IMG/VR virus record: IMGVR_UViG_3300020583_000033
Span: 1 to 29,787 of that record
From: a virus
Strand: one strand, 5' to 3'
Length of the DNA stretch: 29,787 nucleotides
Below are positions 4,219 through 11,553 of this stretch, in pieces; position 1 is the first letter of the stretch; each line of letters starts with the position of its first letter. The notes under the pieces are model-generated. The model was not told where the DNA came from, ran no database searches, and worked only from the letters and a program-made list of their open reading frames with translations. Made by a program: the position numbers and the translations under genes.

Positions 4219-4833
4219 TTACGAGAGTATATTCGTGAGCGCCGCGCACATACGCTTCTTGCGAATTACCTTGATTGGAAAGTGATTGGTGCCCGGAATG
4301 GTGAGGGCTTCTTCGACGGTCCATCCGCCGCGGTCGATGCGATTTTTAACTGTCATAAAAGGCAAGCCGATTGTGCGCGCCCATTCTGAAATACATTTCG
4401 TTTCTCCATGAAATGTGAGTAGGTGATTGCTTTTCAAGTTTTGGTTTTGTTCTCGTCGTGTAGCCCATCGACAATTTCCTTTGAAGTACCCGAGAGATCC
4501 GTTGATTCTATCGAGGCTTTTTCCAATCGGACGTTCTCCGAGGTCAGAAAGAAAAGCCTCGAACGATTCGCTCCATTCTTTTGAGACAGTGATGCCTGCG
4601 CCTCCGTATTTTGGAAAATCCGTGTAGTTTGGGTTGGTGCACCGTTGGAGCATCATTGCCCAGCTTCTGTAAGTACGACTCCTGGATTTTCCATGGGTTG
4701 GGTTATTAAACTTGGCGCTGCATGAAACAGAGCAGAATTCGCCCAAGCCACGCTTAATGCGGTAGGGGTGCACGTAGAATTCTTTGTTACAGTATTTGCA
4801 GTAACGCAGTACACTTGATTTTGGGGGTGTCAT
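4219..4833 (-). CDS. HNH-type homing endonuclease
   Basis: The 204-residue product fits a free-standing mobile endonuclease of a type common in phages. Cys12, Cys15, Cys34 and Cys38 form a likely zinc site. TYRSWAMMLQRCTNPNY (54-70) and YGGAGITV lead to the nuclease core SLDRINGSLGYFKGNCRWAT (106-125), the usual variant in which LDRIN and NCRWAT carry the HNH fold. Residues 141-180 (ISEWARTIGLPFMTVKNRI, then GWTVEEALTIP) form a helix-turn-helix DNA-binding end. Such enzymes cut alleles lacking the insertion and spread by repair. It is antisense to the phage operon, inserted between small genes and the portal, and is visibly more AT-rich than its neighbours, which fits recent transfer. Confidence 0.85.
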   Translation of the reverse strand: MTPPKSSVLRYCKYCNKEFYVHPYRIKRGLGEFCSVSCSAKFNNPTHGKSRSRTYRSWAMMLQRCTNPNYTDFPKYGGAGITVSKEWSESFEAFLSDLGERPIGKSLDRINGSLGYFKGNCRWATRREQNQNLKSNHLLTFHGETKCISEWARTIGLPFMTVKNRIDRGGWTVEEALTIPGTNHFPIKVIRKKRMCAALTNILS

Positions 4834-4907: not shown

Positions 4908-4916
4908 TGCTATGCT
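4908..4916 (+). promoter_or_regulatory. Possible extended -10 box ahead of portal gene
   Basis: TGCTATGCT resembles an extended -10 element (TGnTATnnT) and is similar to the TGTTATGG core of the shared intergenic elements. It lies 12 bases before the portal Shine-Dalgarno, downstream of the antisense endonuclease gene, where a new promoter would be useful. No -35 hexamer is seen. The evidence is weak. Confidence 0.25.
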
Positions 4917-4927
4917 GATGAACAAAA

Positions 4928-4932
4928 GAGGG
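4928..4932 (+). promoter_or_regulatory. Shine-Dalgarno supporting an ATC start for the portal gene
   Basis: GAGGG at 4928-4932 sits seven bases before ATC at 4940. No ATG, GTG or TTG exists in the portal frame between the upstream TGA (4919-4921) and the ATG at 5114. The codons after ATC would read as M-A-N-I-T, a common phage protein start. This is the evidence that translation begins well upstream of 5114. Confidence 0.5.
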
Positions 4933-4939
4933 TAAGGCC

Positions 4940-6712
4940 ATCGCAAACATTACGTTCATCGGAACTGCTCGAAAGTCCGCGAAGCAGGAGCATATAGATC
5001 CGAGGGCAAGACATATCCGCGAATGGCGAGAGGCTTCAGATTCAGCCCGCAACAAGGCTCTTGGGGAATCCTTCGCCAAGAATGCTGAAGACCTTTATAA
5101 TCTTTCCGATGCGATGACCCCCGGTCCGGTCTACAGGCCCTCGTTGTCCATTCCGATGCTGCAGCGAATCATGCTTGAAGAGGCTAATCAAGTCTCGAAT
5201 CTTTCTCCTCGCATGTATGTGTTTCCGTCTGCCGGTTCTTCTGATCCTTCTTACCAAGGTGCGCAGCAAGCGGATTCTTCTCTTCCCTCATCGTCTGCGC
5301 GCGATCTGGCGCGAGAGGTTTCACTTCAAGCTCAGTGGCAGATCAGTAAAATGAATCTGCATCTCCTGATGGCAGGGCTGACTGCGCGATACTGCGGAGC
5401 TGGCTGGATCGTCGCTGGGTTTGATCCGAATCTTTCGCGTGCGCGCGGCGGTATGTGGGCTCGTTCGATGGACCCTCGCATGGTCTTCTTCGATCCCAAC
5501 ACGGACTATACTTGGAATCCTTCTTTCGCTGGCTGGTCTATGGGGATGAATTTGGAGGATATCCGGCTCAAATGGCCGGAGACCTCGCGTGCGGTTCAAC
5601 CGCGTCGTACCAGCGGAGGCTTTCAACCATTTTCTGGCGACTCCGGTTACGGGATCTCGCAGCCCCCAGGGCCTATGTCGTCGATGCCTTCTTCTCCCGG
5701 TCAGAATGCGAAGACACAATCTTCTGACTCAATGCTGTTGGTAACCCACTGCTTTTGTCGCGACTACACACGCGAGGCTGTTGAGAAGCCTGATGTACCG
5801 ACTACGTCTTTGATCGATCCAGAAGTTCGGCTCAAATATCCGAATGGCCGTTGGTTGATAGAGTGCGAAGGCGTTGTGCTTCAAGACGGCGACAATCCAT
5901 ATCCTCCACGTCGCGACATCACAGCGCCGAGATTTCCGTTGTTTGTAAATTACACATTGCCTCCTCTCTTCGGTCCATGGGGGATTCCCGTCACGCGCAT
6001 GACTGAGAATATGCAGAGGCTTGCTCAGCGGTTTTATTCGCAAATCTTCGAGAATGGTCTGCGTATGAACAACGCGCTATGGATTATAGATGAAAATACT
6101 GGAGTGGATATCGACGGTTTTGGAGGTCTGCCCGGTGAGGTCGTGACAATCAAGCCGGGCAGCCGGCCGCCTCAGCCGATTACTCCCAGTGCGATCGGCG
6201 CGGGCGCCATGCAAGGCGCCGAGAAACTTCTCGCGCTGCAGAACGACGTGCTTGGATTCTCAGCTTCCCGGCAGGGCGATCCAGGCGCCGGCAACGTGTC
6301 GACTGATTTATTCGATTCAGCGGTTTTGCAATCGTCGGGATTGCTGCAATTGGCTGGACGATTTTTGTCGGAGACGGCGCAGATGGTTGGAGAATTTTTC
6401 TTCGACAGCATGTGTCGGTACATGGACAAGAGCAATCTTCCTTACCGTGGACCCGAGGGAATTACCCTCGCTTCATGGGCGGGCATGGTTGATCCTTCGA
6501 CCTACGATGTGGCGCTCGACGAAGCTTCAGTGCGGCCACTCAGCGAAGCGATCGTCCGAAAAATTACGCCAGACTTGATGAAATCTGGAGTCGTAGGACC
6601 GGAGCGCGGGCTGCGGACTTTGGGTTACCCCGATCCCGAGGGAATTGCTTCGGAGCAACAAACGCAGCAGGCCCTGGCCGCGCTGGCTAAAGTTCGGAGT
6701 GGGCGCAAATGA
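4940..6712 (+). CDS. Portal protein, probably ATC start
   Basis: The portal is the dodecameric ring at one capsid vertex through which DNA is packaged and ejected. From 4940 the product is 590 residues, a normal portal size. Visible portal-like parts are DPRMVFFDP (178-186), NPYPPRRD (319-326), the long helix after FGPWGIPVTRMTENMQRLAQ (344-363), and a helical C-terminus rich in Gln and Ala. The only ATG-type start would be 5114, losing 58 residues (such as RHIREWREASDSARNKALGE) that read like a genuine charged N-terminal helix. A Shine-Dalgarno fits ATC at 4940. Other explanations are a +1 frameshift from a tiny ORF at 4912-4935, or a base error. The portal assignment is firm; the start is tentative. 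The terminase that normally precedes it is not adjacent. It overlaps the next gene by ATGA. Confidence 0.88.
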   Translation: MANITFIGTARKSAKQEHIDPRARHIREWREASDSARNKALGESFAKNAEDLYNLSDAMTPGPVYRPSLSIPMLQRIMLEEANQVSNLSPRMYVFPSAGSSDPSYQGAQQADSSLPSSSARDLAREVSLQAQWQISKMNLHLLMAGLTARYCGAGWIVAGFDPNLSRARGGMWARSMDPRMVFFDPNTDYTWNPSFAGWSMGMNLEDIRLKWPETSRAVQPRRTSGGFQPFSGDSGYGISQPPGPMSSMPSSPGQNAKTQSSDSMLLVTHCFCRDYTREAVEKPDVPTTSLIDPEVRLKYPNGRWLIECEGVVLQDGDNPYPPRRDITAPRFPLFVNYTLPPLFGPWGIPVTRMTENMQRLAQRFYSQIFENGLRMNNALWIIDENTGVDIDGFGGLPGEVVTIKPGSRPPQPITPSAIGAGAMQGAEKLLALQNDVLGFSASRQGDPGAGNVSTDLFDSAVLQSSGLLQLAGRFLSETAQMVGEFFFDSMCRYMDKSNLPYRGPEGITLASWAGMVDPSTYDVALDEASVRPLSEAIVRKITPDLMKSGVVGPERGLRTLGYPDPEGIASEQQTQQALAALAKVRSGRK

Positions 6713-7706: not shown

Positions 7707-8252
7707 ATGGCAGGTGTTAAGCAAGCAAACCGGCGAACGCTCAAGGTCGATATCAGGGATACCGATTGGGCGCGGCTTGCGGCCTACATCGATGGTGAGG
7801 GATGCGTTAACATCCACACTAACCGTGGGCAAGAGGCGCTCGGAAAGTCAAGGAATCATTCTCTTAAGATTCATGTCACCAACACGGATCCACGCTTGCC
7901 AGTTTGGATTTTTGAGACGTTTGGTGTTGGTAAGTGCCGTCAGAAACAAAAATCTCCGAGCATCGTCGCTTATATGGGCACGGGGAAGAAGTGGCGGCAA
8001 GTTCATATTTGGCAGGTAGAGGCTAAACTCGCCGCGCAAATCCTTGAAGGCTGTATGCCGTTCTTCGTCATCAAACGCGAACAGGCTGAAATTGCCATTG
8101 CATTTCAGAAGACCAAGACCTATCACAACGGCGGAGGCAAACGGGGAACTCGTATCCCAGTCAATGTAATTCAAATGCGCGAGCAGATGGCGCATGAGGT
8201 TCGCCAACTTAAGCACGTCAACTATGAAATCAAGGAGGCCGTAAATGGCTAA
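7707..8252 (+). CDS. LAGLIDADG homing endonuclease
   Basis: The 181-residue product carries one LAGLIDADG motif as LAAYIDGEG (24-32), whose acidic residues coordinate the catalytic metal, followed by CVNIHTNR, the first strand of the DNA-binding saddle. FFVIKREQAEIAIAFQ (119-134) matches the usual C-terminal helix of single-motif enzymes, which act as homodimers. GAGG lies nine bases before the ATG. It is free-standing, not inside an intron or intein that I can see, and is in the same direction as the phage operon. Its stop overlaps the next gene's start by 8 bases. It likely spreads by cutting a site in or near this locus in related phages. Confidence 0.9.
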   Translation: MAGVKQANRRTLKVDIRDTDWARLAAYIDGEGCVNIHTNRGQEALGKSRNHSLKIHVTNTDPRLPVWIFETFGVGKCRQKQKSPSIVAYMGTGKKWRQVHIWQVEAKLAAQILEGCMPFFVIKREQAEIAIAFQKTKTYHNGGGKRGTRIPVNVIQMREQMAHEVRQLKHVNYEIKEAVNG

Positions 8253-8454: not shown

Positions 8455-8958
8455 ATGGCAGCAGGGAATCCAGCCTTGGCGCAGATGATGGCGCGGCAAC
8501 TGATCGGGAAACTCGCAGGAGGAGCGCCTAACGGCGGCCCTCCCGCTGGCCCCGGCGGTCCGATGCCTCCTCCGCCTGGGATGACAGGTCAGGGTGGTTC
8601 TGGTGGCCCAAGTGCGGGCGGAACGGGAGCCCCCGGCTCCCCGCCCCCTACAACTCCTGCTGGCCTTCAGCTTTCTCAGCAACTGGCCGAGCTTCAGGGC
8701 GCCGATCCTGACGCCATGATCAAGTCTTTAACTTCGATGAAGTCGATGGCTGTTCAGCAGTACACGCGCGCCGCCTTCACCATGCCCGGCGTCACGCGTA
8801 ATCTCGCTCAGGTCGTCAAGTATCTCGATAACTGTATCCAGGAAGCGGAGAAGGCAGCGGCCACCACGGCTGCGGCTGGTCCGATCACCAACAACGCAGC
8901 CATCCCCAATCCTGCTGGCCAGAATGCGCCGGTCAACGGAATGGGATCACAACAATAG
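8455..8958 (+). CDS. Hypothetical head-region protein
   Basis: The product has 167 residues. The N-terminus (1-22) is a helix, followed by a Gly/Pro-rich low-complexity linker (about 23-70), then a helical domain (about 72-140) that includes QLAELQGADPDAMIKSLTSM and ends near CIQEAEKAAAT, and a disordered Asn/Pro tail. The position just before the scaffold, and the helix/linker composition, suggest a head-assembly helper or minor capsid protein. I cannot assign a family. The gene starts 24 bases after the previous stop and is followed by AAGGAG for the next gene. Confidence 0.7.
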   Translation: MAAGNPALAQMMARQLIGKLAGGAPNGGPPAGPGGPMPPPPGMTGQGGSGGPSAGGTGAPGSPPPTTPAGLQLSQQLAELQGADPDAMIKSLTSMKSMAVQQYTRAAFTMPGVTRNLAQVVKYLDNCIQEAEKAAATTAAAGPITNNAAIPNPAGQNAPVNGMGSQQ

Positions 8959-10056: not shown

Positions 10057-11043
10057 ATGGCCAATAGCGTGGTTGGACTGGGACTTGCATCGCCACCGGT
10101 TCAGTTGAGTAACAACGTCAACGCGATTTCCCAGAAATTTATCGTCCCTGTCCTCGGCGACAACGTGTTCAAGCCCTCCCCTGTTTTCTGGGCTCTCACC
10201 CGAGAGGGCAAACGGTTTGGCGCCGGCGAACTGATCTTCCCGGAAATCTACCAGGAAGAGCTTCCCGGCGGCGCGTACTACGGCGACCAGTTGCTCGATA
10301 CCTCGGTCGTCGATTCCGTGCAGCCGGCGAACCAGCAGTGGAAGCCGTACCGCCAGCCTGTCGTGATTCCGATCACCGACATCATTTTGAACCGCGGCGG
10401 CTCGAACAACCTGGACATCATCCGGGCGAAATTCCAGACCGCATCCGGCAGCTTCCTGCAGAAGCTCTCGCGCGCCTTGTGGCACACCTCGCCGCAGAAC
10501 ACCTCGCTTGACGTGGACGATCTCAACTCGTGGGTCGTGTCGACCACGAATACGATCGCGGGCATTAATCGTGCGTCCTCGGCGAATGCCTGGTGGCTGG
10601 CCGCGACCGCTGTGGCCGGCGGTTCCGCTGCGTTGTCTTCGGCGACTGCCGAGCCTGGATACCAGTCCGTCACCTGGGGCTATGACGAGCCCGATCTGTT
10701 CGTAATGAACCGGACATCGTATGCGGCGTTCAAGAATCAGTTTGTCGCCAACATCCGATTTGGCCAGGGAATGCAGGATGACGAAGCCTTGCAGGTTGGC
10801 TTCCGCAATCACTTCCTGTTCAACAACGCGGTGACGGTTGCCGATTACTTCGCGACCGCGAATCAGGCTCTGCTGTTGAACTCGAAGTACATTTTCCCGG
10901 TCTTCCATGAGGCGGATTACTTCAACGTGGATCCGTTCCTGAAGCCGTCGAACCAGCGTGTTCTCGTGTCGTGCATGTATCTGACCTGGAATCTGAGTTG
11001 CATCTCGCCCAGGATGAACGTGCCGTTCACAGCGATCACCTAA
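10057..11043 (+). CDS. Major capsid protein
   Basis: The coat protein builds the icosahedral head. The 328-residue product fits the size of HK97-fold coat proteins. Visible features are an N-terminal arm, FWALTREGKRFGAGELIFPE (45-64), a central domain with YDEPDLFVMNRTSYAAFKNQ, and a C-terminal strand region with YIFPVFHEADYFNVDPFL. Position directly after the scaffold supports the call. AGGAG precedes the ATG. No protease gene is seen and the protein lacks an obvious propeptide, so maturation may not need cleavage. A 9-bp inverted repeat lies just after the stop. Confidence 0.88.
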   Translation: MANSVVGLGLASPPVQLSNNVNAISQKFIVPVLGDNVFKPSPVFWALTREGKRFGAGELIFPEIYQEELPGGAYYGDQLLDTSVVDSVQPANQQWKPYRQPVVIPITDIILNRGGSNNLDIIRAKFQTASGSFLQKLSRALWHTSPQNTSLDVDDLNSWVVSTTNTIAGINRASSANAWWLAATAVAGGSAALSSATAEPGYQSVTWGYDEPDLFVMNRTSYAAFKNQFVANIRFGQGMQDDEALQVGFRNHFLFNNAVTVADYFATANQALLLNSKYIFPVFHEADYFNVDPFLKPSNQRVLVSCMYLTWNLSCISPRMNVPFTAIT

Positions 11044-11054
11044 CGAGCCAAGGG

Positions 11055-11099
11055 AGGAGAAGGCAGACCAGGCCTGTGACCCGGATTCAACCTTCTCCT
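11055..11099 (+). repeat. Inverted repeat after the capsid gene
   Basis: AGGAGAAGG (11055-11063) pairs exactly with CCTTCTCCT (11091-11099) across a 27-base loop that holds the palindrome CAGGCCTG. No T run follows, so it is not a standard terminator. It could slow ribosomes, stabilise the abundant capsid mRNA, or affect translation of the next gene. Confidence 0.4.
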
Positions 11100-11121
11100 T
11101 CCAACCCCAAGGAGAACTTCC

Positions 11122-11553
11122 ATGGCGCTACCTTTTGCAAATCCAGTTTCGCAATGCATGCCGGGGTTCGGCTCGCCTTCATTCTACGGGGCTGCGACTC
11201 AGACTCCCACCACCACGGCCGCTCTAACCCTTACGATCGGCGCGACGGCCACCACACCTTCAACCGGAGGCACACCGTTCAATCTCAACGGCGGCCCGGC
11301 TCCGACTTCCGGCAAGTGGCATCTGCGCATGGCCGGCGCGACAGGTACTCCGACTCTCGCGCTTCAGGTCACTGTCTCCGATGGCACGAATACATGGACT
11401 GTTGCGACGATTCCGGCATCTGTAGCCACCAACTATCTTGACTACACAGGTGAATTCAAGACGGATGTGTCGATCACCTCAGTAGCGTTTGTCACGACAC
11501 CCGGCGGCGGAGGGACCAATATTCCGCTGGATGCGGAAGTCTCGCTCGTCTGA
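11122..11553 (+). CDS. Small beta-rich head (decoration-like) protein
   Basis: The 143-residue product is rich in Thr, Gly, Ala and Val with alternating polar and hydrophobic residues, such as LALQVTVSDGTNTWTVATIP, which predicts a beta-sandwich. A small beta protein right after the coat gene is most often a head decoration or capsid-stabilising protein. AAGGAG precedes the ATG. The gene is followed by a rho-independent terminator, so it is the last gene of the capsid transcription unit. No family is recognised. Confidence 0.7.
   Translation: MALPFANPVSQCMPGFGSPSFYGAATQTPTTTAALTLTIGATATTPSTGGTPFNLNGGPAPTSGKWHLRMAGATGTPTLALQVTVSDGTNTWTVATIPASVATNYLDYTGEFKTDVSITSVAFVTTPGGGGTNIPLDAEVSLV

Follow-up and report, generated by a model that had tools for sequence, protein, structure and literature searches.

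Portal genes in a family of uncultured soil phages very probably begin at weak codons such as ATC instead of ATG

The stretch analysed here, called the window throughout, is positions 1 to 29,787 of the IMG/VR virus record IMGVR_UViG_3300020583_000033 (29,787 nucleotides), and the gene in question is that of its portal protein, the ring through which DNA enters the virus head. The portal reading frame begins right after a TGA (4919-4921) and is open from 4922; counting from there, the first ATG, GTG or TTG in frame is the ATG at 5114. A GAGGG (4928-4932) is followed by the seven bases TAAGGCC and then by ATC at 4940, which gives an encoded start (M or I)-A-N-I-T. The original prediction, made from the sequence of the window, had noted both the long run without a canonical start codon and the GAGGG seven bases ahead of ATC, and both are correct. 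Where, then, does the protein begin? The features of the portal locus are the following.

4940..6712, + strand: portal protein gene, 590 codons plus stop (PHROG matches of relatives; AlphaFold2 model compared with solved portals)
4940..4942, + strand: ATC, strongly supported start codon of the portal gene (aligned-codon comparison; upstream in-frame stops in relatives with ATC)
4928..4932, + strand: GAGGG, Shine-Dalgarno-like sequence (from the sequence; seven bases before ATC, a good spacing)
4940..5113, + strand: 58-codon N-terminal part lying 5' of the first canonical start codon (conservation, pN/pS, predicted helices)

By its family matches and its modelled fold, the window gene is that of a tailed-phage portal protein. 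Relatives match PHROG family phrog_156, 'portal protein' (4 of the 10 members of set A2, best E 2e-15); the window's own protein, taken alone, stays below the PHROG threshold. An AlphaFold2 model built from 35 related sequences (mean pLDDT 68) had the podovirus portals Pan3, SU10, GP4, PaP3 and T7 as its top Foldseek matches (best E 5e-14, TM about 0.5). A tblastn search with the portal against the phage collection gave no match and thus brought up no cultured phage that has this portal.

Close relatives of the portal were present on 68 contigs. More distant portal and capsid searches supplied a wider set, and one further relative was taken from a contig (L134) of an Acidobacteria metagenome-assembled genome (MAG). 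In all 60 non-redundant portals, ATG or a codon with a single mismatch to it stands at the position that aligns with 4940 (ATG 34, ATC 12, GTG 6, TTG 6, ATA 1, CTG 1); codons of this kind occur in 5% of cases one codon upstream and in 0% one codon downstream. ATT is absent from this position, although it would be expected in one third of cases were this an ordinary isoleucine codon (P about 0.01), and neither AAG nor AGG was ever found there. On the portal tree there are at least six changes between ATC or ATA and canonical codons, and the closest outgroup has TTG throughout. Several ATC portals (L289, L458, L286, L042, L047 and L059) have an in-frame stop only one to five codons upstream, as in TAG GCC ATC (L289), TAG GTC ATC (L458), TAG GAT AAG GCC ATC (L286) and TAG AGG GAG TAC GCT ATC (L042), so that no in-frame start farther upstream is possible; both such a start and readthrough were rejected on this ground. 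In the window, L289, L458, L286 and others, the stretch from the upstream stop to the conserved N-terminus is free of canonical in-frame starts, and a codon other than ATG, GTG or TTG stands at that N-terminus behind a properly spaced Shine-Dalgarno (SD) sequence. Predicted pairing with the anti-SD is stronger for ATC/ATA portals than for ATG portals (in-group means -9.1 vs -7.1 kcal/mol, p=0.004; all portals, p=0.009), both p-values ignoring relatedness; the stronger SD would compensate in part for weak initiation. Initiation at ATC 4940, directed by GAGGG as the ribosome-binding site and one of two possibilities originally put forward, is strongly supported by the 60 of 60 aligned codons, and portals in this family of uncultured soil phages very probably begin at weak codons such as ATC instead of ATG.

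Standard gene finders would choose ATG 5114, the first canonical start, and leave the 58 codons before it untranslated. The alignment of relatives that the original prediction called for argues otherwise: every relative whose sequence extends far enough in the 5' direction has the 58 residues conserved, and many of these relatives have ATG at the equivalent of 4940. No relative has a portal that starts at the counterpart of 5114; those with ATG, GTG or TTG start upstream of it. Across eleven ATC/ATA lineages, codons 2-58 have a pN/pS of 0.30 (pS being 0.82, near saturation), and AlphaFold2 confidently predicts helices at residues 21-41 and 45-54 (pLDDT mostly 80-90). At residue 2, 88 of 89 portals have Ala, Ser or Gly, which is what an initiator Met ahead of it would lead one to expect and is compatible with removal of that Met. 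M59, the residue encoded by ATG 5114, is missing from some distant relatives, L123 and L289 among them, which makes an internal start there unlikely. Judged by conservation and predicted structure, the 58 residues are translated and under purifying selection, and we consider the internal start very improbable.

The N-terminal region is disrupted in a few relatives. Two distant portals (L305, near 4534-4650, and L311, near 488-560) are longer by 5 or 6 bases, a TGA among them, at one shared site, after ...RHL and before DEW; the added bases break the frame or add a stop, and two unlike disruptions at a single site may reflect recoding or error. L010, a relative that starts with ATG and is near-identical apart from this, has a nonsense TGA in its portal N-terminus close to the same site, some 84 bases ahead of position 2445.

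Since a single base change would turn ATC 4940 into a normal start, the codon could in principle be a sequencing or assembly error. However, a second contig, IMGVR_UViG_3300021406_000229, has the same ATC and differs from the window by one mismatch over 7956 bp, and ATC is also present in a 92%-identical relative (L002), so a base-calling mistake confined to one contig is not the cause. No sequence of this virus has ATG at 4940, and ATC recurs in 12 clusters from many metagenomes plus the Acidobacteria MAG contig. Error is the least credible of the explanations considered.

The original prediction had offered as its second possibility a +1 frameshift, as in prfB, at a GGG-TAA that ends a tiny open reading frame (ORF) just upstream and would join it to the portal frame. 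Two further features matter here.

4912..4935, + strand: tiny ORF, ATG CTG ATG AAC AAA AGA GGG TAA (candidate frameshift donor, rejected)
4908..4916, + strand: TGcTATGCT, probable extended -10 promoter-like box (TGnTAnnnT enrichment upstream of portals)

The GGG-TAA and a purine-rich stretch are indeed present, the motif is shared with L002, and the frame of the tiny ORF stays open farther 5', from about 4843. Yet among ATC relatives GGG-TAA is restricted to the window, L001 (the window's own virus) and L002; in the others a comparable upstream ORF is missing or lies in a different frame, and relatives with ATG start at exactly the 4940 codon. No conserved slippery stop with a conserved upstream ORF in another frame, the mark of a prfB-type shift, is seen. 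Furthermore, the ATG of the tiny ORF lies inside the probable -10 box, so the ORF may not be transcribed. Of 56 distinct sequences upstream of portals, 17 have TGnTAnnnT in the last 45 nt, compared with 2% of shuffled sequences; such a box in the window would place the transcript start downstream of that ATG. A sigma-70 scan for hexamer pairs, which needs a -35, reported no promoter at 4908-4916. The frameshift is therefore left without support, and we regard it as highly improbable.

A phage-encoded initiator tRNA with a matching anticodon was also considered and rejected, since neither the window nor any of five long relatives (not necessarily complete genomes) encodes one. One related phage contig, L326, carries a probably permuted tmRNA (10810-11182, ARAGORN tmRNA*) and a tRNA-Glu (8458-8530).

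Is the portal gene alone in having such starts? Six phage sequences were screened across 157 conserved gene entries, of which about 30 were flagged; a genome-wide screen without gene filtering was dominated by antisense frames. On inspection, in our judgement, only two genes stood out, the portal gene and that of the terminase large subunit (TerL; phrog_2, E 3e-20 to 3e-23). The remaining flags came from shadow frames, from the edges of alignments or from genes that have a canonical start close by, and apparent non-canonical starts in other genes were discarded because they fell at alignment edges and a canonical start lay within a few codons. The 38 non-redundant TerL genes start at ATG (9), ACG (8), TTG (8), ATC (6), ATT (3), GTG (2), CTG (1) or TCG (1), that is, at ATG or a near-cognate codon in 37 of 38 clusters, and those starting at ACG, ATC, ATT or CTG make up about half of the family (L343-L394, L339:12509). 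Most of these starts are preceded by an AGGAG-type SD, and an in-frame stop is often found a few codons before the start. On the TerL tree 22 start-codon changes are needed, and 12 if only those between canonical and non-canonical codons are counted. In some ACG genes an ATT or ATA precedes the ACG by one or two codons; in L353, L377 and L389, however, neither codon lies at a distance from the SD that would suit a start. In relatives of the window phage the TerL gene, too, thus very probably begins at weak codons such as ACG. In some members (L339:12509-15391) TerL contains an intein-like insert with a LAGLIDADG-like domain.

Other genes served as controls. The major capsid gene starts with ATG in 67 of 67 relatives, and small neighbouring genes have a canonical start in 47 of 47 and 51 of 51 cases. 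The neighbours of the portal gene considered here are the following.

10057..11043, + strand: major capsid protein gene, control with an ATG start (PHROG phrog_9953)
4219..4833, - strand: HNH endonuclease gene, directly upstream of the portal leader (PHROG phrog_3377, E 1e-49)

This HNH gene sits between a small upstream gene and the portal leader, and a second HNH endonuclease gene (7707-8252, + strand) lies on the other side of the portal region. A C5-cytosine DNA methylase gene (849-2516, - strand) is found upstream of the head genes.

The sole chromosomal assembly that carries this portal is the Acidobacteria MAG, whose contig also has ATC at the start, and Acidobacteria are tentatively taken as candidate hosts. 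In the MAG and in most relatives searched (L423-L447), infC, the gene for IF3, has no canonical start near its N-terminus and has ATC after GGAG. Host infC thus appears, from its sequence, to start at ATC, the classic kind of start repressed by IF3; a gene caller restricted to ATG, GTG and TTG would miss it. IF3 represses non-canonical starts and spares AUG, GUG and UUG (PMC4611024, PMC5472188), and infC, with AUU in E. coli and AUC in Streptomyces, is the standard example of a gene autoregulated through IF3 (PMC5472188).

We propose that initiator fMet-tRNA reads ATC 4940 with GAGGG as its ribosome-binding site, which would yield a 590-residue product beginning (M)-A-N-I-T. ATC is one of the near-cognate codons against which IF3 discriminates, so initiation would be weak, and the strong SD would offset this in part. 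Portal and TerL, both low-copy packaging proteins, share this kind of start in the family, and the capsid protein keeps ATG; the likely effect is that motor components are made far below the level of capsid protein and respond to the level of host IF3, as host infC probably does. A virion contains about 12 portal and about 5 motor subunits vs hundreds of capsid subunits, and a lower output of portal and TerL would match this low copy number. That an ATC start limits portal dose, as originally suggested, is plausible. Comparison of sequences establishes the start position, the conservation and translation of the N-terminus, the recurrence in two packaging genes, the ATG of the controls and the ATC at infC; the lowered output, the dependence on IF3 and selection for weakness over tolerance are inferred. 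We give a probability of about 0.8 to the reading that weak, IF3-sensitive initiation from ATC 4940 limits the packaging-motor proteins.

Several observations weigh against this reading. Weak initiation is not a requirement, since the majority of portals in the family have ATG. The sequence of the window does not extend as far as its terminase gene; the TerL data come from related phages, and the portal/TerL pair is uncheckable in this virus. At the TerL start position L360 has TCG, which is not a near-cognate codon, behind a perfect TAGGAGG. According to a review, the central U is the only universally conserved base of start codons (PMC4611024), yet ACG, the most frequent of the non-canonical TerL starts, has a central C, which would make ACG as a bacterial or phage start the oddest part of the picture. 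The host assignment rests on a single MAG contig. And a weak start may be tolerated in genes of low demand instead of being selected.

On this last account the near-cognate start is real and its spread is neutral drift with no regulation, because few copies are needed or because host initiation is permissive. The rapid turnover of TerL start codons on the tree, the continued prevalence of ATG in portals and the small amount of synthesis that low-copy proteins need all agree with it. It fits less well with the retention of ATG, GTG or TTG by the other genes, with the stronger SD that accompanies ATC and ATA, and with the absence of AAG and AGG as starts and of ATT from portals. In addition, the 21 contigs that have both genes never have ATG in both, a lead only (P=0.03, or 0.09 after removal of near-copies). 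We judge tolerance unlikely, although it is the most serious competitor of limitation by a weak start. In a bolder form of the latter, the whole phage lineage might place portal and TerL under IF3-dependent control through rapidly interchanging near-cognate starts, ACG included, copying the AUC device of host infC so that motor dose tracks the translation state of the host; this is a tentative suggestion on which we would not wager at even odds.

The starts also expose a systematic annotation error: gene finders limited to ATG, GTG and TTG would truncate or mis-start portal and TerL genes, and in the window portal 58 residues would be lost. If limitation by weak initiation is true, initiation control of the IF3 class would reach the stoichiometry of virion assembly, and the naturally interchangeable start codons would be material for gauging how weak a start viruses use.

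Podovirus portals (phrog_156; Pan3, SU10, PaP3, T7) have the same fold and belong to the same family as the window portal, and to our knowledge no near-cognate starts have been reported in them. A literature search limited to open-licence papers likewise found no report of near-cognate starts in phage packaging genes. Among bacterial genes, few are known to have such starts, infC, sigR and Borrelia pncA being examples. Like the portal gene, infC is essential and has a near-cognate A-U-N start behind a strong SD, with AUC at infC of the candidate hosts also; it is, however, autoregulated by its own product, whereas portal and TerL are phage packaging genes that would at most respond to host IF3. 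Streptomyces sigR, with a GTC start repressed by IF3 (PMC5472188), is similar in that a gene other than that of IF3 is held down and is routinely misannotated, but there the codon is fixed and the gene is one bacterial regulator; in the phages two genes switch recurrently among near-cognates. For Borrelia pncA (bbe22), with an AUU start (PMC13398362), database entries were truncated at an internal canonical codon and the true near-cognate start lay upstream, again as here; that gene encodes a bacterial enzyme and its start was confirmed by genetics and structure. What sets the present case apart from these is recurrence in two essential phage genes across a family whose neighbouring genes keep ATG.
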